Assembly: GCA_902806085.1 (NCBI GenBank)
Contig: CADCVH010000065.1
Coordinates: 1-32,297 of the forward strand
Direction of reading: 5' to 3'
From: an uncultured Rubrobacteraceae bacterium
Lineage (GTDB): Bacteria > Actinomycetota > Rubrobacteria > Rubrobacterales > Rubrobacteraceae
Length of the DNA stretch: 32,297 nt
The notes under the pieces were generated by a model. It was not told the origin of the DNA and searched no databases. It saw only the letters and a list, made by a program, of their open reading frames with translations. The position numbers and the translations under genes are program-made. Below, one piece after another: positions 4,187 through 32,297 of this stretch (position 1 is its first letter; the number at the start of each line of letters is the position of its first letter).

Positions 4187-6688
4187 ATGCGCGTCTACCT
4201 CATCGACGGATTCTCCCTGCTCTACCGGGCGTTCTACGCGCTGCCGCAAAGCATCTCCACGAGCGGCGGGCTTCCCACGAACGCGCTGTACGGCTTCACC
4301 AGCATGATCCTCAAGCTCCTCGAGGCCGACGAACAGGTCGGCCTCGGCGTGGTCTGGGACAGCGGCAAGCCGGCGTTCAGGATGGAGGTCTTTCCCGAGT
4401 ACAAGGCCCAGCGCTCCGCGATGCCAGAAGAGCTCAAGGTCCAGCTCGACCACCTAGACGAGATCCTGGCGGCCATGAACATCCCCGCCGTGAGGGCGGA
4501 GGGCTTCGAGGCCGACGACGCCCTGGCGACGATGTCCCGCCAGATCCCGGACGACACGGAGCTGTTCATCGTCACCGGCGACCAGGACGCGATGCAACTG
4601 GTGGACGGCAACGTGAAGGTGCTCCGCACGACGCGCGGCGTCTCCGAGACCAAGACGTACGGGCGCGAGGAGGTGATCGAGGAGTACGGGGTGACGCCGG
4701 AGCAGATCCCGGACTACAAGGCACTCATCGGCGACCCTTCGGACAACATCCCCGGCGTCCGCGGCATCGGCCCTAAGGGCGCCTCGAACCTCCTGCAGCG
4801 CTTCGGCACGGTCGCGGAGATCTACGATAACCTGGACGCCATCTCCGCCAAGGGCACGCGCAAGAAGCTCGAAGAGGGCCGCGAGAGCGCCTTCATGTCC
4901 CTGGAGCTCGCCCGGATGCGTTTCGACGCGCCGGTCCGGTTCGATCCGGAGGCGCTTCTGTTCGAGGGCGTCTCCCCGGAGAGCCACGACGTCGTCCTGC
5001 GCCGCTACGAGTTTCGCAGCCTGCAACCGCGCTTCGCGGTCCTTCCCGTGGTCGGCGGCGAGGCGCCCCCGCCCCCGGAGCGGCTTGAGGTAAGCGTCTC
5101 CGAAGAGCCCGTCGAGCTGTCTTTCGAGCCGGTCGCGGCGGCGCCGGTGGGGGAGGGAGGGCGCTGGTGCGTGGCCGTCTCCGAGGAGGAGGTGCGGCTC
5201 GTGGACGGGGTGCCCGACGTTCCTTTGAAGGTCCACGACGCGAAGAAGCTCGGGGTGCGGGGGGCGGGGTTCGACACGTTCCTGGCGGCTTACCTCATCA
5301 AGCCGGGTCTCGGGAGCTACGAGCTTGAGGCGTTGGCCGGGGAGCGTGGGCTGGCCGAGGTCGAGGTGGGCCACCAGGACCGGGAGGTCGAGGCGGCGGC
5401 GCGGAGGGCGGCTTTGATCTTCGCGCTCTCGCCCCGGCTTCAGTCCGAGCTCGAGGAGATGGGGCTCGCCCGGCTCTACTACGACGTCGAGCTGCCCCTG
5501 GCGGACGTGCTCGGGGAGACCGAGGACACAGGTATGCCCGTGGACAGCGACACCCTCGAAGAGATCGGGGAGGACCTCGTGGGGCGGATAAGCGACCTCG
5601 AATCTCGCATCTACGAGGAAGTCGGCCACGAGTTCAACATCGGCTCGCCGAAGCAACTTGGCGAGATCCTCTTCGAGGAGATGTCCATACCGCCGATCCG
5701 CAAGACGAAGACCGGCTACTCCACCGACGCGAAGGTGCTCGAGCAGTTGCGCCTGCAGGGCCACACCATAGCCGAGCTTATAGTCGAGTACCGCGAGTAC
5801 GCGAAGCTAAAGGGCACCTACATAGACGGGCTGCGCGACCTCATAACCGAAGACGGCCGCATCCACACCACGCTCAACCAGACCACGACCGCCACGGGCC
5901 GCATCTCCAGCGACAAGCCGAACCTCCAGAACATCCCGATCCGTACCGAGACCGGCGCCCGGATCCGGGACGCGTTCACCGCCTCGCCGGGCCGCCGCCT
6001 CGTCATCGCCGACTACTCCCAGATAGAGCTCAGGATCCTTGCCCACATGACCGGCGAGCCGTCGCTTGTGGAGTCGTTCGAGAACGGCGAGGACATCCAC
6101 ACCCGCACGGCCTCCGAGGTCTTCGACACGCGGATGGAGAGCGTGACGCCGGAGCTCAGGCGGCGGGCTAAGATGGTCAACTTCGGCATCCTGTACGGGA
6201 TCTCCGGTTTCGGGCTGGCGACCCGGCTCGGGAACGTGCACCCGGCCGAAGCCGAGCGGTACATCAAGCGGTACTTCGACCGGTATCCGCGGGTGACGGA
6301 GTTTATGCGGGAGACGCTTGAGGAGGCGGAGGAGCTCGGGTACTCGACGACGCTCTTCGGGCGCAGAAGGTACGTGCCGGAGCTCAGGAACCCGAACAAG
6401 AACGTCAAGAAGCTCGGGGAGAGGATCGCCTTCAACGCCAGGGTCCAGGGGACGGCCGCCGATATTATGAAGGTCGCGATGGTGGACCTTCATGCGCGGC
6501 TGCGCTCCTTTGGCGCGGAGATGATCATGCAGGTCCACGACGAGCTGGTCTTCGACGTGGACCGGGGCCAGGAGGAGGTGGTCGCGGCATTGGCCATCGA
6601 CCGGATGGTCGCCGCCTACGACCTGCATCCGCCGCTCGAGGTGGAGGCGAAGGTCGGGGAGAGGTGGGGTAGGGTGAAACCTCTCTGA
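4187..6688 (+). CDS. polA: DNA polymerase I
   Basis: The 833-residue family A polymerase fills gaps after excision repair and removes RNA primers. The N-terminal 5'-nuclease domain (about 1-290) has LIDGFSLLYRAFYALP, ADDALAT, VTGDQDAMQLV and GDPSDNIPGVRGIGPKGA. The polymerase domain has motif A DYSQIELR at 609-616, motif B RRRAK with F666 and Y670, and motif C VHDE at 783-786. The middle domain (about 310-420) keeps the 3'-5' exonuclease outline (HDAKKL, FDTFLAAYLIKPG) but lacks the first DxE carboxylate motif, so proofreading is probably absent, as in Taq polymerase, which has almost the same length. F666 predicts normal discrimination against dideoxynucleotides. The ATG at 4187 appears to be leaderless. 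Confidence 0.97.
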   Translation: MRVYLIDGFSLLYRAFYALPQSISTSGGLPTNALYGFTSMILKLLEADEQVGLGVVWDSGKPAFRMEVFPEYKAQRSAMPEELKVQLDHLDEILAAMNIPAVRAEGFEADDALATMSRQIPDDTELFIVTGDQDAMQLVDGNVKVLRTTRGVSETKTYGREEVIEEYGVTPEQIPDYKALIGDPSDNIPGVRGIGPKGASNLLQRFGTVAEIYDNLDAISAKGTRKKLEEGRESAFMSLELARMRFDAPVRFDPEALLFEGVSPESHDVVLRRYEFRSLQPRFAVLPVVGGEAPPPPERLEVSVSEEPVELSFEPVAAAPVGEGGRWCVAVSEEEVRLVDGVPDVPLKVHDAKKLGVRGAGFDTFLAAYLIKPGLGSYELEALAGERGLAEVEVGHQDREVEAAARRAALIFALSPRLQSELEEMGLARLYYDVELPLADVLGETEDTGMPVDSDTLEEIGEDLVGRISDLESRIYEEVGHEFNIGSPKQLGEILFEEMSIPPIRKTKTGYSTDAKVLEQLRLQGHTIAELIVEYREYAKLKGTYIDGLRDLITEDGRIHTTLNQTTTATGRISSDKPNLQNIPIRTETGARIRDAFTASPGRRLVIADYSQIELRILAHMTGEPSLVESFENGEDIHTRTASEVFDTRMESVTPELRRRAKMVNFGILYGISGFGLATRLGNVHPAEAERYIKRYFDRYPRVTEFMRETLEEAEELGYSTTLFGRRRYVPELRNPNKNVKKLGERIAFNARVQGTAADIMKVAMVDLHARLRSFGAEMIMQVHDELVFDVDRGQEEVVAALAIDRMVAAYDLHPPLEVEAKVGERWGRVKPL

Positions 6689-6785: not shown

Positions 6786-8063
6786 ATGACTGACACCACC
6801 GAAAAGACCACCCGCGAGTTGACGATGAAGGACTTTTTCCGGGAGGAGAACGGAGAGGTCGTTCCCGTCGACGAGAGCGTCCTTATAGATTTCAAGGACG
6901 GCGACATAGTCGAGGGCGAGGTAGTCCGCATCGACCGGGACGAGGTTCTCGTTGATATCGGGTACAAGTCCGAAGGGCTGGTCCCGTCCAACGAGTTGAC
7001 CATCCGCAAGGGTGCCGACCCGCACGACGTGGTCGAGCTCGGCCAGCGCCTGGAGGCGCTGGTGCTCCAGAAAGAGGACGCCGACGGCAGGCTCATCCTC
7101 TCGGCCAAGCGGGCCGCCTTCGAGCGGGCGTGGAACCGCATCGAGGAGTCCTACAACGAGCAGCGCACCGTCGAGGGCCCGGTCATCGAGGTCGTCAAGG
7201 GCGGACTCATACTGGACATCGGCCTGCGCGGGTTCCTGCCGGCGAGCCTCGTGGACATCCGGCGCGTCAGGAACCTGGAGTCGTTCCTCGGGCAGAAGCT
7301 CGAGTGCAAGGTCATCGAGCTCAACCGGAGCCGCAACAACGTGGTGCTCTCGCGCCGGGCCGTGCTCGAGGAGGAGCGCAAGGAGGAGCGGGAGAAGATC
7401 CTCACGTCGCTCGAAGAGGGCCAGATCATCAAGGGCACCGTCTCGAACCTCGTGGACTTCGGCGCGTTCGTCGACCTCGAAGGCATCGACGGCCTGATCC
7501 ACATAAGCGAGCTCTCCTGGCAGCACGTCGACCACCCGAGCGAGGTCGTCGAGGTTGGGGAAGAGGTCGAGGTCAAGGTTCTCGAAGTGGATAGGGACCG
7601 CGAGAGGATCTCGCTAGGCCTCAAGCAGACGCGCAAGGACCCGTGGCAGGAGATCGTCGAGCAGGTCAACGTCGGCGAGCAGATCCAGGGCCGCGTTACG
7701 AAGCTCGTCTCCTTCGGCGCCTTCGTCGAGGTCGCGGAGGGGGTCGAGGGCCTGATCCACATAAGCGAGCTCGCCGAGCACCACGTCGAGACGCCGGACG
7801 AGATCGTGCGCTCCGGCGACGAGGTCGACGCCCGCATCATCGATGTGGACGCGAAGCGCCGCCGTCTCTCGCTCTCCCTGCGTCCGAAGCGTGAGGAGCG
7901 CGAGGAGAGGGCCGAGCGCCCGCCGCGCCAGAGGGACGACCGTCCCCCGCGCCGCGAGGACCGGGCCGACCGCGGTGACCGGGGCCGGGGCTCCTCCGAG
8001 GGCAGCGGCCTGCGCACCGGCGCCTTCGACGCGCTCTCCGACCTGGACCTCGAAGAGAAGTAA
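6786..8063 (+). CDS. rpsA: 30S ribosomal protein S1
   Basis: This 425-residue RNA-binding protein helps mRNA load on the 30S subunit. Four S1 (OB-fold) domains are visible: about 30-105, 120-190, 203-275 and 288-360. The last two carry the best consensus, with VDFGAFVDLEGIDGLIHISEL and SFGAFVEVAEGVEGLIHISEL type cores. A tail from about 362 to 425 is rich in R, E, D, P and G and resembles the disordered basic tails of actinobacterial S1. Four domains is the normal actinobacterial number, against six in E. coli. It has its own promoter and a ribosome site 11 bp before ATG 6786. Confidence 0.95.
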   Translation: MTDTTEKTTRELTMKDFFREENGEVVPVDESVLIDFKDGDIVEGEVVRIDRDEVLVDIGYKSEGLVPSNELTIRKGADPHDVVELGQRLEALVLQKEDADGRLILSAKRAAFERAWNRIEESYNEQRTVEGPVIEVVKGGLILDIGLRGFLPASLVDIRRVRNLESFLGQKLECKVIELNRSRNNVVLSRRAVLEEERKEEREKILTSLEEGQIIKGTVSNLVDFGAFVDLEGIDGLIHISELSWQHVDHPSEVVEVGEEVEVKVLEVDRDRERISLGLKQTRKDPWQEIVEQVNVGEQIQGRVTKLVSFGAFVEVAEGVEGLIHISELAEHHVETPDEIVRSGDEVDARIIDVDAKRRRLSLSLRPKREEREERAERPPRQRDDRPPRREDRADRGDRGRGSSEGSGLRTGAFDALSDLDLEEK

Positions 8064-26877: not shown

Positions 26878-28716
26878 ATGTCCCGCAACGGTTATCCCGA
26901 CAGGTCCCACCTCCCGACCTCGCCCGGCGTCTACATCTTCAAGGACGACGGGGACAGGGTCGTCTACGTCGGCAAGGCCAAGAACATCCGCAGCCGGGTG
27001 GCGAACTACTTCACCAAAGGCGGGGACGGCAGGCCGAAGATAGCGGAGCTTCGGGAGCGGGTCTCGCGGATAGACTTCATCGCGACCCGCAGCGAGACCG
27101 AGGCGCTCGTCCTCGAAGCGAACCTCATAAAGCGCCACAGGCCGCGGTTCAACGCCTCCCTCAAAGACGACAAGAGCTACCCCTACATCGTGGTGACGAC
27201 GGGCGACGAGTACCCGAGGGTCTTCGCCACGCGCTCCTTGCACGATTCGCGGCACCGGTACTTCGGGCCGTTCCCGAGCGCGGGGTCGGTCCACTCGACG
27301 CTGGACGTCCTGAACAAGACGTTCCCGTTCCGCAAGTGCCGGGGGCCGGAACCCGGCCGCAGGAGCGGGGTGCCTTGCCTCAATTACCACATCGGGCGGT
27401 CGGCGGCGCCCTGCATCGGGGCGGTGACGAAGGAGGGGTACGACGCGATCATCGCCGACGTCATCCTGTTCCTCGAAGGGCGGGTGGACGGCCTGATCCG
27501 GACCCGCCAGGAGGCCATGAAGAAGGCCGCCCGCGAGATGGACTTCGAGCGGGCCGCGAAGCTGCGCGACGAGCTCGCCGGCCTGAACCACGTCCGCGAC
27601 CGCCAGCAGGCCACCATAACCTCCGAGGACTCCTTCGACGCCGTCGGGGCCTACGCCGAGAACGGCTCCGCCTGCGTCCAGGTCTTCGCCGTGCGCGACG
27701 GCCAGGTCGTCAACCGGGACTCGTTTCTCCTGGACAACTACGGCGAGGAGGGCCCCGAGAGCGTCGCCCTGAAGTTCATCCCCCAGTACTACGACAACGC
27801 CGCCGTGCCCCGCGAGGTCCTGGTCCAGTCGGACGCCCCCGAGGACGACCTCCGCCCGCTGCGCGAGCACCTCTCGCAGGTGCGCGGGACGGGAGTAGAC
27901 GTGCGCCGGCCCCAGCGCGGGGACAAGCGCCGGGTGCTAGAGAACGCCGTCCGCAACGCCGAGTTGGGCCTCGCCCACGAGAAGATGCTCGACGAGGCCC
28001 GCCGCAACCAGGTCGCCTCGACGCTCGACACCCTGAGCGAGGAGCTCGCGCTCCCGAAGCTGCCGATGCGCATAGAGTGCTACGACATCTCGAACACCAT
28101 GGGAACAAACTCCGTCGCCTCGATGGTCGTCTTCCAGGGCGGGAAGCCGGCGAAAGACCAGTACCGGCGGTTCAAGATCCGGACCGTCGAGGGCGCGGAC
28201 GACTTCGCCAGCATGTCCGAGGTCATAAGGCGCCGCCTGGAGCGCCTGAAAGAAGAGGACGAGAAGTTCCTGCCCGCCCCGGACCTGATCCTGCTGGACG
28301 GCGGCAAGGGCCAGCTCTCCGCCGTCGTGCCCGTCCTCTCGGAGATGGGCATCGCCGACGAACTCCCGGACATCCCCCTGCGCTCCCTCGCCAAGAGGGA
28401 CGAGGAGGTCTTCCAGCCGGGCCGCCCCGAGCCCGTCCTCCTCAGGCGCAACTCCCCGGAGCTGCACCTCCTCCAGCGGGTCCGCGACGAGGCCCACCGC
28501 TTCGCCAACACCTACCATCGCAAGGTCCGGAGCAGGTCCATGACCCAGTCCGTCCTCGACGACCTCCCCGGCATCGGACCGGCCCGCAAGAGGCAGATCC
28601 TGGACCACTTCGGCACCCCCGATGCCTTCCTCAACGCCTCCCTGGAAGACCTCGAAGCCGTCCCCGGTCTTCCGGGCCGCGTTGCCCGGGAAGTCTACGC
28701 CAGGGTACACAGGTAA
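26878..28716 (+). CDS. uvrC: Excinuclease ABC subunit C
   Basis: The 612-residue nuclease makes both cuts around the lesion. The GIY-YIG domain (about 10-95) has [26 protein letters not shown] Cys-containing region ([22 protein letters not shown]) follows, then a UVR domain [22 protein letters not shown] that pairs with UvrB. The RNase H-like 5' nuclease has D403 in CYDISN, D474 in LLDGGKGQL and H540 in DEAHRFAN, the expected triad. Two C-terminal helix-hairpin-helix motifs ([30 protein letters not shown]) bind DNA. Length and order are typical. The ATG at 26878 appears leaderless. Confidence 0.97.
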
Positions 28717-29091
28717 GCGTTAGGTCTTGCAGGATTGTCTTCGGTTTCCGGTCGAACCGTGGTTGCGGTAGAAAGCGTCCCGCGTCCGACAGACGGATGA
28801 AATACTAGGGCCGCGGCTGGCCCAGGGCTTCGGGCGCGGTTCGGCTCCCCCGGGCTACCCGGTAGAGGCCTTACCGGAACTTCGGGCTGAGGGGGTTCTC
28901 GGAAGCTTGCAAAGAAAACTCCGAAACCTGGCTCATTTGGGGGATGCGCCTTGGCGTCCGGGTCCTGTAGGGTCCGTGCCGTTACAGGCGAGCAGGGGTC
29001 CGGAACCGCCCCCCACCGATGGTGGGCACCCAGGGGGAGCGGGGAGCCAGTGGTGCAACCGACTGCCCGCGAGGACGAAGGGAGGTAGCGT
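28717..29091 (+). other. Intergenic region with likely structured leader of the 29092 gene
   Basis: These 375 bp hold no convincing ORF. Several perfect short hairpins are seen: CCTGTA with TACAGG (28967-28989 region), CCCACC (29012-29017) with GGTGGG (29021-29026), and a member of the dispersed intergenic repeat at 28863-28935. The GC-rich paired segments resemble a riboswitch or structured leader, but no known class (cobalamin, c-di-AMP, c-di-GMP, fluoride, SAM) could be matched by its conserved core. Confidence 0.4.
28863..28935 (+). repeat. Dispersed intergenic repeat, copy D
   Basis: A 23-nt core (28877-28899) matches copy B (30269-30291) at 21 of 23 positions, and TAGAGG precedes both. 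Downstream, 28899-28911 matches the stretch after copy C (30942-30954) at 11 of 13 positions. ACCTGGCTCA at 28926-28935 parallels ACCTGCTCA at 30959. D therefore links the B and C versions. Confidence 0.6.
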
Positions 29092-29355
29092 GTGAAGCGC
29101 TACGTTGTGTTGTTGGCGGTGATGGCGCTGTTGGTGGTGTCCCTGGCGGTGCCGGCATTTGCCGGGGAACAGGCCCTGGGCCGCGCCAACTCGATCTGCG
29201 CCGCCTCTGGGCAGAACGACAACCCCGACGAGGCCTTCCCCGACGATGGGCGCACCCAGTCCTACGGGCAGCTCGTCAAGAGGGGCGCGATGGTGCCGGG
29301 CGACGAGCCCGGACGGGCGGCGCCCGGGTTTGCCTGCAACGGCTCATCCCGTTGA
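29092..29355 (+). CDS. Small secreted protein of unknown function
   Basis: The 87-residue product starts at GTG 29092 with GGGAGG upstream. Residues 1-24 are a classic signal peptide (KRYVVLLAVMALLVVSLAVPAFA) cut before GEQALG. The mature part is about 63 residues, with two cysteines (ICAASG, FACNGS) that could form a disulfide, and is rich in D, G, N and P. No family is recognised. It has a long GC-rich leader with hairpins and is followed by a hairpin terminator, so it is a single-gene unit. Confidence 0.75.
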   Translation: MKRYVVLLAVMALLVVSLAVPAFAGEQALGRANSICAASGQNDNPDEAFPDDGRTQSYGQLVKRGAMVPGDEPGRAAPGFACNGSSR

Positions 29356-29385
29356 AGTAGCGGGATCAGCCTCAGAGCTGGCGTC

Positions 29386-29413
29386 GGGCCGGGTTTCTTC
29401 GGGATCCCGGCCC
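29386..29413 (+). terminator. Hairpin terminator of the 29092 gene
   Basis: GGGCCGGG (29386-29393) pairs with CCCGGCCC (29406-29413) over a 12-nt loop, followed by TACCTTTTG. A smaller hairpin, ATCCCG (29346-29351) with CGGGAT (29361-29366), surrounds the stop codon. Confidence 0.7.
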
Positions 29414-29421
29414 TACCTTTT

Positions 29422-29470
29422 GCCCTATTCACCGTACGTCCTAGAAGGAGCGTTCCCGGAACCTCGGGTG
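29422..29470 (+). repeat. Dispersed intergenic repeat, copy A
   Basis: GCCCTATTCACCG at the left edge and TAGAAGGAGCGTTC then GGAACCTCG align without gaps to copy B (30232-30280) across 49 nt, with about two thirds identity. It lies 65 bp before the coiled-coil protein gene. Confidence 0.7.
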
Positions 29471-29534
29471 TGGCGTCCGCGCCCCCGGGGTAGGAAGCTC
29501 CTAAAGCAAGCCCACTGGGGAAGGAGCACAAAGC

Positions 29535-30158
29535 GTGATGGATAGAGGGAAAGCCCGGGACGTCAACGAGGCGGCCGCGAGATTCGCCGAGACGCTCGCC
29601 GATTCCTACAGGCTCGTCTACGGGCGGGCAGCCGAGGCGGGCCAGCGCCAGCAGGAGCGCGCGCAGGAGTTCTCCGAGCTCGTGGCCCGGAACCTCAGGG
29701 AGCAGACCGAGGCCAACCGCGCGGGCGCCGAGGCGCTCTCCGAGCAGGCAACCAGGCAGCAGGAGGCCGGCCAAGCGCTGGCCCAAGAGTCCGTGGAGGC
29801 CTACGCCCGGTTCCTCGACGAAGCCTTCTCCCGCTACCGCTCCGGCACCGAGATGGCCGCCCAAAGCGCCCGCGAGGGGACCAGGACCCTCGCGGAGACG
29901 ACCACGGGGCTGGTGGGCACCGCGGCGGGGGCCGCAGGCGCCACGGCTGGAGCGGCCGCAGGCGCCGCGCGGGAGGCGTCGGACGCGGCCACCTTCCCGA
30001 TCCCCGGCTACGACTCGATGACCGTCGAGGAGATCGAGGAGAGGCTTGGCCCCCTCACGGATGACCAGGTGAGACGCGTGAGGGACCACGAGCGGCAGAA
30101 CCAGAACCGCAAGACCCTCATCGACCGCTACGACCAGAAGCTGAGGGCCTCCTCCTAA
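29535..30158 (+). CDS. Phasin-like coiled-coil protein with C-terminal conserved domain
   Basis: The 207-residue protein has no signal peptide. Residues 10-120 are a long Gln/Glu/Ala-rich amphipathic helix like phasins or other granule- and membrane-coating proteins. An Ala/Gly-rich hinge (GTAAGAAGATAGAAAGAA) follows. The C-terminal 50 residues, PGYDSMTVEEIEERLGPLTDDQVRRVRDHERQNQNRKTLIDRYDQ, form a separate helical domain that I recall from many actinobacterial proteins but cannot assign a function. AAGGAG at 29521-29526 suits GTG 29535, with ATG 29538 as the alternative. It may coat storage granules or membranes; that is inferred from the helix pattern only. Confidence 0.8.
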   Translation: MMDRGKARDVNEAAARFAETLADSYRLVYGRAAEAGQRQQERAQEFSELVARNLREQTEANRAGAEALSEQATRQQEAGQALAQESVEAYARFLDEAFSRYRSGTEMAAQSAREGTRTLAETTTGLVGTAAGAAGATAGAAAGAAREASDAATFPIPGYDSMTVEEIEERLGPLTDDQVRRVRDHERQNQNRKTLIDRYDQKLRASS

Positions 30159-30186
30159 GAGGACCCAACAAACCGCAGCCCACAGA

Positions 30187-30218
30187 GAAGGGGGGCGGGC
30201 CCCTAACCGCCCCCCTTC
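30187..30218 (+). terminator. Intrinsic terminator after the phasin-like gene
   Basis: A perfect 12-bp G/C-rich stem (30187-30198 with 30207-30218) has an 8-nt loop and lies 28 bp after the stop codon. The T-run is minimal. Confidence 0.75.
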
Positions 30219-30231
30219 GTGCGCCTCATCG

Positions 30232-30280
30232 GCCCTGTTCACCGGACGTTGTAGAGGTGGCGCTCTGCGAACTTCGCGCC
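30232..30280 (+). repeat. Dispersed intergenic repeat, copy B
   Basis: GCCCTGTTCACCGGACG, TAGAGG and GCGAACTTCGCGCC align to copies A and C. The match to copy D continues to 30291. It sits in the 167-bp gap between the convergent phasin-like and lipoprotein genes, so it is unlikely to be a promoter for either. Confidence 0.7.
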
Positions 30281-30325
30281 GAGGGGGTTCTGCGAGGTCC
30301 GGGCGGGCTCACCCCTCCGGGTTCG

Positions 30326-30868
30326 TCACCGCCTGACCACCCCCGATGAGACCCACAGCGGCCCCCGACACCGCTCCGGCACGCCCAGCTCCCCCCGCTT
30401 CTCTTCAAACGCCCGACGCGCAGCTCCCGGCGTGGGCCCGGCCTCCTCCTGGGTGATCTGGCCCCCGCCCATGCGCACCTCCTCCCCGACCTCCGCCACG
30501 GCTTCGCCACGCCCGTTTAGGACGAGGATCTCGTCTCCCTCCCTGCGCAGGGAGTAGCCGTGGGGCCACACGACCAACCCCCCGCGCCCGTCGGGGGCCA
30601 TGCGGATGCAGCGGTCCCTCACCACCAGCCTGCCGGAGCCGAGGGCCAGGGGGAAGTCGCTGGTGGGATCCAACCGGGGGAAGAAGAACCCGGCCTGCTT
30701 CTGGGGCGGACGGGCCGGGGGGGCATAGACGGTACGATCGTCGTGGGGGTCCGCCCCGTCGGGGGGCGGGGCGTCGCCCGACCCTGAGGCCTCGCCAGTT
30801 CCCGAGGCGCACCCGACCACCAGTGAGGCCAAGGCGATCACGCACGCAGCGATCCAGAAGCGACCCAT
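30326..30868 (-). CDS. Lipoprotein of unknown function
   Basis: The 180-residue protein has a type II signal peptide with lipobox LVVGC (cleavage before C20). A Gly/Ser/Pro/Asp-rich tether of about 40 residues follows, then a compact domain from about 60. RLVVRDRCIRMAPDGRGGLVVWPHGYSLRREGDEILVLNGRGEAVAEVGEEVRMGGG looks like a small all-beta fold with a Cys pair completed by VPERCRGPLW. The block resembles unnamed actinobacterial lipoproteins. It is anchored outside the membrane. The start is ATG 30868; copy C of the intergenic repeat lies just upstream. Confidence 0.82.
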   Translation of the reverse strand: MGRFWIAACVIALASLVVGCASGTGEASGSGDAPPPDGADPHDDRTVYAPPARPPQKQAGFFFPRLDPTSDFPLALGSGRLVVRDRCIRMAPDGRGGLVVWPHGYSLRREGDEILVLNGRGEAVAEVGEEVRMGGGQITQEEAGPTPGAARRAFEEKRGELGVPERCRGPLWVSSGVVRR

Positions 30869-30883
30869 ACCCGGCCATCCTAC

Positions 30884-30932
30884 CCTTATTCACCGGAGTG
30901 CGTGGAAGGTAGATTCTCCGAACTCCGCCTTA
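30884..30932 (+). repeat. Dispersed intergenic repeat, copy C
   Basis: ATTCACCGGAG, GTGGAAGGTAG and TTCTCCGAACTCCGCC align without gaps to copies A and B from TTCACCG onward. It lies between the divergent lipoprotein gene and the membrane-protein gene at 31025, next to the left 33-bp inverted repeat. Confidence 0.65.
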
Positions 30933-30958
30933 TTCGTTTTGTCGGAAGTTCGCATCAG

Positions 30959-30991
30959 ACCTGCTCACGAACCCTGCGAAGCATAGCTGGA
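30959..30991 (+). repeat. Left 33-bp inverted repeat flanking the 31025 gene
   Basis: The 33 nt starting ACCTGCTCACGA match the reverse complement of 31727-31759 at 30 of 33 positions. The repeat lies 33 bp before the start codon of the enclosed gene. Confidence 0.85.
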
Positions 30992-31024
30992 TCTGGACTG
31001 AAAGAGAACTGCTACCCTGGCTGG

Positions 31025-31660
31025 ATGGAATTCCGGAGCAGCGTGGTCGTCCTCGCGGTCGGAGGGGTATTCGGCGCGGCCACGTCTCTCGTCAACGACG
31101 TGTGCTCGCCCTACGGGACGATCGGGAGCCGGATTGTTGGCTCGGCTTGGGCGTGGGCCGCGGAGATCGCGGAGGTCGCAAGCCTATTGATCGGCCAAGG
31201 CTGGGCGTGGGCGGGGCTTGCGGTGGCCTTGGGGTGGCTGGCAGGAACCGGTGCTCGGGGGGCTGTCGCCGGCGTTCTGTCCCTGGTCGCTGCTACGACG
31301 GCTTACTACGGCATGGACTCGGTCCTCATAGAAGGAGGCCCGGAAGGAAGGTTCGCCGGATTTTGGCACGAGACGCGTTTCTGGTGGCTGGCGAGCGTGG
31401 CCTTCGGGCCGGCCCTCGGTGCGCTGGGCGCGGGTATCGGGCGCCCCGGTGCGATCGGTCTCCTAGCGGGCCTGACGGTGCCGGTCGGCGCGACCGTCCA
31501 GACGATCTGGCTACCGAGCGGCCCGATGGCGACCCCGGCCGAGCACTGGGCGCGGGCGATCGTACTGGTGGGCGCCGCGATGGTCACGAGTTGTGTCATC
31601 GCGCGGTTTGGTGCCTCTCTGAAGGGTAGAAGGATGTCGCGGGACGGCAGCCGTGACTAA
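31025..31660 (+). CDS. Small multi-pass membrane protein (resembles DUF6518-type proteins)
   Basis: From ATG 31025 the product is 211 residues with about five or six hydrophobic segments. FGAATSLVNDVCSPYGTIGSRIVGSAWAWA, then GAVAGVLSLVAATTAYYGMDSV, is a pattern I associate with DUF6518 membrane proteins; the family name is tentative. The open frame extends back to 30902, but that part runs through repeats C and the inverted repeat and looks non-coding. TACCCT ends 6 nt before the ATG, so the mRNA may be leaderless. The gene is enclosed by 33-bp inverted repeats. Function unknown. Confidence 0.78.
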   Translation: MEFRSSVVVLAVGGVFGAATSLVNDVCSPYGTIGSRIVGSAWAWAAEIAEVASLLIGQGWAWAGLAVALGWLAGTGARGAVAGVLSLVAATTAYYGMDSVLIEGGPEGRFAGFWHETRFWWLASVAFGPALGALGAGIGRPGAIGLLAGLTVPVGATVQTIWLPSGPMATPAEHWARAIVLVGAAMVTSCVIARFGASLKGRRMSRDGSRD

Positions 31661-31672
31661 TGATCGAGGCCA

Positions 31673-31702
31673 GCTCAAGGTCGGGAGTGACCGACCTTGA
31701 GC
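31673..31702. terminator. Bidirectional-type terminator hairpin
   Basis: GCTCAAGGTCGG (31673-31684) and CCGACCTTGAGC (31691-31702) form a perfect 12-bp stem with a 6-nt loop, 12 bp after the membrane-protein stop. ATTTT follows at 31709-31713. Confidence 0.8.
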
Positions 31703-31726
31703 CTATCGATTTTCCGTCAGCGGTGC

Positions 31727-31759
31727 TCCAGCCATGCGTCGCAGGGATCGTGAGCAGGT
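31727..31759 (-). repeat. Right 33-bp inverted repeat flanking the 31025 gene
   Basis: On the minus strand this reads ACCTGCTCACGA... and matches 30959-30991 at 30 of 33 positions. The three differences are single substitutions. It lies beyond the gene's terminator, in a 190-bp non-coding segment. Confidence 0.85.
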
Positions 31760-31847
31760 TTGGTTCGCATAGTCTCGGTCGTATCGCCTCGGGGTCCATC
31801 TTCGCATAATATCCCGCGAAGGTATTACGTCCCCTTGCTGGGGCTAT

Positions 31848-31881
31848 ACCGGACCACACGCCATATCTGCAGCGGTCCGGT
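31848..31881 (-). terminator. Hairpin downstream of the SnoaL-like gene
   Basis: ACCGGACC (31848-31855) pairs perfectly with GGTCCGGT (31874-31881) over an 18-nt loop, 15 bp after the minus-strand stop at 31897. A smaller CCCC/GGGG hairpin follows at 31831-31843. No T-run is present. Confidence 0.45.
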
Positions 31882-31896
31882 CGCTCCGGTCCGGCC

Positions 31897-32297
31897 TCAG
31901 GCGAACACCCGCGGGTTGCCCACGACGGAGAAGACTTGGATCGCGAGCGCCGCGATCTTCCACCCGTCCGGCGTCCTGACGAGGCGGTCCACGTACCGCG
32001 CCCGCAGGGTGGCGTCTTCGCCGCCCTCGAGGCCGGGGACGTGGTGATGGCCGACGAAATACGAGCTGCTCGTCGCCTCATCGCCCCGCACATCGATGAG
32101 GAAGTTGCCGTAGAGCTGCTGCGTGCCCATCTCCGACGCCGGCCTGCGGAAGGATTGCCCGAACACCTCCACCAGCTTGGCCTTGGGCACCGTGTCCCGC
32201 GGGACGCCCAGGGCGGGCAGGTCGGCGTCGACCTCGTCGGCAAAGAGCGAGCCGAACAGGTCCCAGTCCCTCGTGTCCAGGGCCAGCGCGAAGCGGT
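31897..32297 (-). CDS. SnoaL-like / nuclear transport factor 2 family protein (5' truncated by window)
   Basis: The frame is open from the window edge to a TGA at 31899-31897, giving about 133 residues. RFALALDTRDWDLFGSLFADEVDADL is the typical start of the second helix of an SnoaL-like cone-shaped alpha/beta barrel. TSSSYFVGHHHVPG and ARYVDRLVRTPDGWKIAALAIQVFSVVGN are the following strands. The internal starts seen at 32190 and 32243 are not needed, because homologous sequence continues upstream of them to the window end. Members include polyketide cyclases, hydratases and isomerases, but many have no known activity; here the catalytic residues cannot be judged. Confidence 0.85.
   Translation of the reverse strand, partial: RFALALDTRDWDLFGSLFADEVDADLPALGVPRDTVPKAKLVEVFGQSFRRPASEMGTQQLYGNFLIDVRGDEATSSSYFVGHHHVPGLEGGEDATLRARYVDRLVRTPDGWKIAALAIQVFSVVGNPRVFA

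Follow-up and report, generated by a model that had tools for sequence, protein, structure and literature searches.

Cassette arrays are a major route by which bacteria collect and reshuffle adaptive genes. Known forms include integrons, with the integrase IntI and its attC sites, and CALIN, in which attC sites are clustered without an integron integrase. Acinetobacter plasmids contain gene modules that lie between short recombination sites (pdif/dif, with XerC/XerD) and are shuffled among replicons (PMC6449649, PMC13141974). IntegronFinder 2.0 found no complete integron in Actinobacteria, and mobile cassette arrays are taken as practically absent from this group (PMC9024848). A literature search returned no relevant link of Rubrobacter to integrons or cassette arrays. 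Here, we analyze a family of short intergenic repeats in a 32,297-nt stretch of DNA (the window; contig C65) from an uncultured Rubrobacteraceae bacterium, hereafter the source genome. We think it likely that these repeats are the recombination joints of an integron-like array of swappable single-gene cassettes, which would use a different recombinase than IntI.

The repeat family and its distribution

The window holds four copies of the repeat, named A to D (Table 1), which an initial annotation had described as related segments. A profile hidden Markov model (HMM) trained solely on copies from other genomes recovered all four, with E values from 9.4e-15 to 6.6e-9, and nothing else in the window below E 0.3. 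In 20 Markov-shuffled windows, the HMM had no match below E 0.6. The relatedness of the segments and their scoring above shuffled sequence are thus borne out, as is the near-identical 23-nt core proposed for B and D, in which 21 of 23 nt are common to the two copies.

In the complete site, which spans approximately 69 nt, a left module precedes the 15-nt core, (A/G)TTCTssGAACTTCG, and a right module follows it. The right module itself repeats the core in degenerate form some 25 nt further downstream. The consensus of 390 copies reads CCCTATTCACCsGAGTGCGTGGAAGGgnn-(A/G)TTCTssGAACTTCG-nnntgAGGGGGTTCTnnGAAGTTCG, and its edges are sharp, with the information falling to zero outside positions -29 to +39. 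This anatomy changes the extents previously given for the segments: B and C are full-length copies, whereas the right module is missing from A and the left module from D. The downstream block ascribed jointly to C and D stands in part: GGAAGTTCGC is common to both and forms the right module, whereas ...CTCATTTGGGGGATG in D is part of a distinct promoter-like block, which is also present in other cassettes and is absent from C. The left module occurs in a few subtypes, which account for the strongest correlations between columns. Many sites are degraded, with one module missing, and the position of a site in a run (first or last), taken alone, is only weakly linked to missing arms. The anticorrelation of left and right modules within one site is partly a detection effect and was not used as evidence.

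A single copy used as a DNA query already matched many partial copies. With a sequence-only model of the site (R1), 92 copies were found in the source genome at E<=1e-4 and 141 at E<=1, and relatives of this genome contain up to 124 copies. Further genomic copies, for which the initial annotation had suggested a scan, therefore exist, and its view of a dispersed repeat family that is more than a promoter holds. Within the Rubrobacteraceae, copies were found in genera g1, g5, and g6 and in part of g12, and none in g2, g3, g7-g11, and g13. When 84,980 species genomes were scanned for an exact motif, 103 stretches were returned; among the matches listed, nearly all came from metagenome-assembled genomes (MAGs) of Rubrobacteraceae or Rubrobacter, and the remainder from unclassified actinobacterial MAGs. 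The viral contigs, plasmid collection, and phages searched contained no copies of the repeat. The array DNA analyzed amounts to 988 kb without redundancy and contains about 430 sites. Every genome used is a MAG, in most cases one that is fragmented at the arrays, and the contigs were selected for holding sites; contamination of the source MAG is 4.55%. Genes on the array contigs were called with a simple codon-bias script.

Array architecture and cassette exchange

Neighboring copies have the same orientation in 222 of 241 cases and the opposite orientation in 19, and their median spacing is 826 bp. Exactly one open reading frame (ORF) is found in 155 of the 222 closed units. The 225 cassette proteins fall into 159 families, 127 of which are singletons. 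Units that begin with a right module tend to end with a left module (odds ratio 3.2, p 6e-4), a clearer relation than that between missing arms and position in a run. Relative to the direction of the sites, 121 cassette genes are in plus and 104 in minus orientation. Because genes lie in both orientations and some have their own riboswitch and promoter-like block, each cassette is probably a transcription unit in its own right and not a promoterless gene.

The exchange of cassettes is precise, in that homology between them ends at the core. A 347-bp cassette on contig C82 of the source genome is 99% identical in a relative (G021), with flanks that differ on both sides; the homology begins at core base 0 and stops at +14/+15, that is, at the last core base. 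Since the uvrC genes of these two genomes are 89.3% identical, the 99% identity of the cassette argues for recent movement. Of the 114 homology end points in all pairs that are 85% or more identical, 18 fall within -10 to +18 of a core in both sequences, whereas such windows make up 1.25% of the bases. Homologous cassettes adjoin a different neighbor in 152 cases and the same one in 12. The window itself provides another example, as the cassette encoding a 207-aa protein has a homologue in G021 (contig C13; 86% nucleotide identity over window positions 29488-30159), and the protein family also occurs in arrays L188, L159, and L220. Together, these comparisons show that the cassettes behave as modular single-gene units that are bounded at the conserved core and shuffled between genomes. 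Because the homology is bounded by the core on both sides, a cassette carries the right module at its 5' side and the left module at its 3' side.

The uvrC-rapZ locus

In five relatives (G018, G019, G022, G023, and G024), uvrC is directly followed by rapZ, and in the source genome these genes are split. Here, uvrC is followed by copy D, which is a head half-site, and rapZ is found on a separate contig, C95. There, approximately 424 bp upstream of the gene and in the same orientation as D, lies a site that comprises the left module and the core and lacks a right module. Some other sites on C95 have the opposite orientation. Such a pair of head and tail half-sites is the pattern that cassette insertion through recombination at the core would leave. 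The spacer between uvrC and rapZ is too diverged between species for the empty chromosomal insertion site to be placed by comparison. In G020 (L268), uvrC is followed by genes other than rapZ, an arrangement that suggests that the spacer is a repeated insertion point.

Comparison with known systems

The arrays resemble integrons and CALIN in that they form long runs in one direction, with mostly single-gene units, diverse and mostly unknown cargo, and a conserved site of 60-70 nt. Further points of likeness are cassettes common to genomes in different contexts and the insertion of the array at a chromosomal position. However, IntI is lacking here, and the core differs from the GTTRRRY/RYYYAAC of attC, the base after (A/G)TT being C in 94% of copies. 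The crossover lies inside the site, which has conserved arms on both sides, so that both a right and a left arm belong to every cassette. Whereas attC is conserved as a folded strand, there is no evidence for a folded single-strand site in the present repeats, and integron cassette genes, unlike those described here, mostly follow the direction of the site. In the absence of IntI, the attC core, a folded attC, and a common gene direction, we have not filed the arrays as integrons.

Site-bounded gene modules are also found in the pdif/dif systems, and both kinds of site are targeted by site-specific insertion sequences (ISs) (for pdif, PMC10132070). In contrast to the present sites, which span 69 nt and keep one orientation, Xer sites are 28-bp and alternate in orientation, and the repeat had no match in the plasmid collection. 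The sites are also reminiscent of the attL/attR sites of phage-type serine and tyrosine integrases, as they are bipartite, with dissimilar arms around a short core, and one arm is left at each array end. The arrays differ from these by having hundreds of sites per genome and no consistent integrase adjoining.

Tentatively, the Rubrobacteraceae may possess an independent third kind of mobile cassette array, which is neither IntI/attC nor Xer/dif. Such arrays would have a double-strand bipartite site of about 69 nt, a recombinase of another family, possibly IS110-type and RNA-guided, and about 100 self-contained single-gene cassettes per genome at several chromosomal positions. If true, the cassette-array architecture would have arisen again in desert and soil Rubrobacteraceae, with tens to >100 units per genome, an unrelated site, and no IntI. 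The system provides a searchable site model and a large cargo of unknown genes, some of them under cyclic-dinucleotide riboswitches.

Proposed mechanism and search for the recombinase

In the mechanism we propose, a trans-acting site-specific recombinase would exchange strands within the core between directly repeated sites and excise cassettes, probably as circles. Excised cassettes would then be inserted either into other cores or into chromosomal sequences that resemble the core. Each joint between two cassettes would become a full site, and right-only or left-only sites would be found at the array ends.

The source genome has 17 matches to the tyrosine recombinase family PF00589, and the number on array contigs is about that expected by chance; with no enrichment over chance on these contigs, the tyrosine recombinases of this genome were rejected. 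Serine recombinases in general were likewise rejected because their distribution does not match that of the arrays.

Several points weigh against recombination joints served by a dedicated recombinase. No tested recombinase family fits the array distribution. The IntI model (TIGR02249) was over its cut-off in none of nine genus genomes, and the best matches were partial ones to XerD-like or phage-type recombinases. A large serine recombinase in G021 (P0001; L292 5155-7035, minus strand) lies directly before an array head (site 7263-7302) and is divergent from it, which is an integron-like layout, but its close family elsewhere consists solely of fragments, and it was rejected as the general recombinase. 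A tyrosine recombinase of the same genome (P0002; L336 3340-4398) ends 38 nt before a half-site (4436-4486) and was rejected in this role because it is absent from the array-rich G020, G022, and G023; its relative in the source genome (C106:61086-62075) is a pseudogene with stops. As to the units themselves, 65 of 257 end with a left module but do not begin with a right module. The count of different versus same neighbors (152:12) includes multi-domain clusters and is inflated by one cluster of 70 units joined via shared domains. Few cassette pairs exceed 90% identity, and the crossover is therefore placed to within about 15 nt, no finer. Finally, cassette circles or active excision are not visible in the assemblies, the evidence being MAG sequence throughout, and RecA-type recombination between the 69-nt repeats could add to the shuffling.

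Alternative explanations

Some of these points would be accommodated if the array were ancient and passive, that is, if the repeats were former recombination sites whose recombinase was lost, as proposed for CALIN, and present shuffling were due to homologous recombination. No recombinase tracks the arrays, many sites are degraded, and the P0002-type recombinase is a pseudogene in the source genome, all of which is in line with this idea. However, the nearly identical cassette in two species with more divergent uvrC genes argues for recent movement, and repeats that are only about 70% alike over 69 nt are poor substrates for exchange by RecA. We consider a passive array rather unlikely.

A speculative proposal is that an IS110-family (bridge-RNA) recombinase mobilizes the cassettes via TTCTnnGAA repeats. 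IS110-family elements (PF01548/PF02371) are inserted at the identical right-module base in three genomes (G021, G017, and G022; Table 1), within sequence that is a near copy of the core. The insertion junction reads GTTCTCGG/CTCCTC...CAAG/TCGGAAGTTCG, slashes marking the joints. Two of the cases include the far end, and in these the site continues as TCGGAAGT. There are only three such cases, however, each of them simply an IS using the repeat as its target, and IS110 is not found at cassette joints generally, which makes this proposal very unlikely. IS1111-attC elements use attC as their target in a comparable manner. Dedicated targeting of recombination sites is also seen for IS1202-family elements, which target pdif (PMC10132070).

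The initial annotation had interpreted the segments as a REP- or MITE-type element, a small RNA family, or a regulator-binding array. The notion of a dispersed family, possibly of mobile-element type, stands, whereas none of these specific candidates does. Repetitive extragenic palindromes (REPs) and bacterial interspersed mosaic elements (BIMEs), with their REP-associated tyrosine transposases (RAYTs), and miniature inverted-repeat transposable elements (MITEs) occur as many short dispersed intergenic copies. The repeats would then be small non-autonomous elements in gene-poor variable regions, with gene turnover being independent of them. The copies studied here are indeed dispersed, mostly intergenic, numerous, and in some cases partial. 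On the other hand, insertion of such elements does not explain the head-to-tail coherence (222:19), the placement at boundaries of gene units, the homology break points at the core, or the co-occurrence of right and left modules across a unit. The Y1 transposase (RAYT/IS200-type; PF01797) expected for a REP element is absent from the source genome (G000) despite >90 copies, and the consensus ends, CCCTATTCACC and GGAAGTTCGC, are not the terminal inverted repeats of a MITE. Insertion-type repeats are thus improbable. It is even harder to see the repeat as a structured RNA or attenuator family transcribed with the adjoining genes, which we regard as extremely unlikely, although two hairpins can be drawn in the consensus and some cassettes contain riboswitches. 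In both hairpins, the observed pairing equals the independent-column expectation (0.821 versus 0.821 and 0.813 versus 0.808), and therefore nothing indicates that folding, as RNA or as a single strand, is what has been conserved; column analysis indicates that the site is conserved by sequence. The compensatory changes that would be expected of a small RNA family were absent from the candidate hairpins, the top covarying columns being those of the sequence subtypes, and an Rfam search gave no match to the repeats. The presence of genes in both orientations relative to the copies (121:104) argues against a transcribed RNA and against a regulator-binding array alike.

Features of the window and additional observations

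The features of the window are listed in Table 1, together with the IS110-family insertions found on other contigs.

Table 1. Coordinates of the repeat copies, cassettes, and genes in the window and of IS110-family insertions on array contigs
Feature	Position	Strand	Description
uvrC	26878-28716	+	Left chromosomal flank of the array; directly followed by rapZ in five relatives
Copy D	28855-28909	+	Array head half-site; core 28870-28884, CTTACCGGAACTTCG, and right module, without left module; model 16-70, E 6.6e-9; first site 3' of uvrC
Copy A	29423-29471	+	Left module and core 29452-29466, without right module; model 2-50, E 1.9e-9
Copy B	30233-30301	+	Complete; left module, core 30262-30276, right module; model 2-70, E 1.2e-12
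Copy C	30884-30952	+	Complete; left module, core 30913-30927, diverged right module; model 2-70, E 9.4e-15
Cassette 1	28870-29466	+	D core to A core; contains a promoter-like block, a c-di-GMP-II riboswitch, and the gene for an 87-aa secreted protein
c-di-GMP-II riboswitch-like RNA	28985-29073	+	Inside cassette 1; RF01786, 44.6 bits, E 6.8e-8; below gathering threshold of 53.5
87-aa protein	29092-29355	+	Signal peptide-like start; no Pfam family
Cassette 2	29452-30276	+	A core to B core; holds gene for 207-aa protein
207-aa protein	29535-30158	+	No Pfam family; recurrent cassette gene
Cassette 3	30262-30927	+	B core to C core; gene on opposite strand
180-aa lipoprotein-like protein	30326-30868	-	No Pfam family
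Next unit start	30913-32297	+	ORF resembling a membrane protein, with likely start at 31025 and end at 31660; contig ends without another site
IS110-family insertions	L336 4487-5792; L297 1773-3090; L293 5802-6569		Site-targeting IS

Riboswitches occur in other arrays as well. In the source genome, arrays L061 and L062 contain c-di-GMP-II-GAG riboswitches that score above the gathering threshold, and array contigs L117, L118, L119, and L120 of a relative contain c-di-GMP-I and c-di-AMP riboswitches. A second conserved block, ...CATTTGGGGGATGCGCC, is found at positions 28934-28950 of the window and in L062, L072, L111, L124, L125, and others. This block typically lies 40-130 nt downstream of a core and shares its direction (33 of 89 loose matches, with 39 matches in shuffled DNA), and it looks like a promoter or operator of the cassette genes. 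The most frequent family of cassette proteins has 12 members, which are found, among others, in L062 (10790-11365 and 13072-13635), L074, L110, and L111, and looks like a secreted RTX-type protein with calcium-binding repeats.
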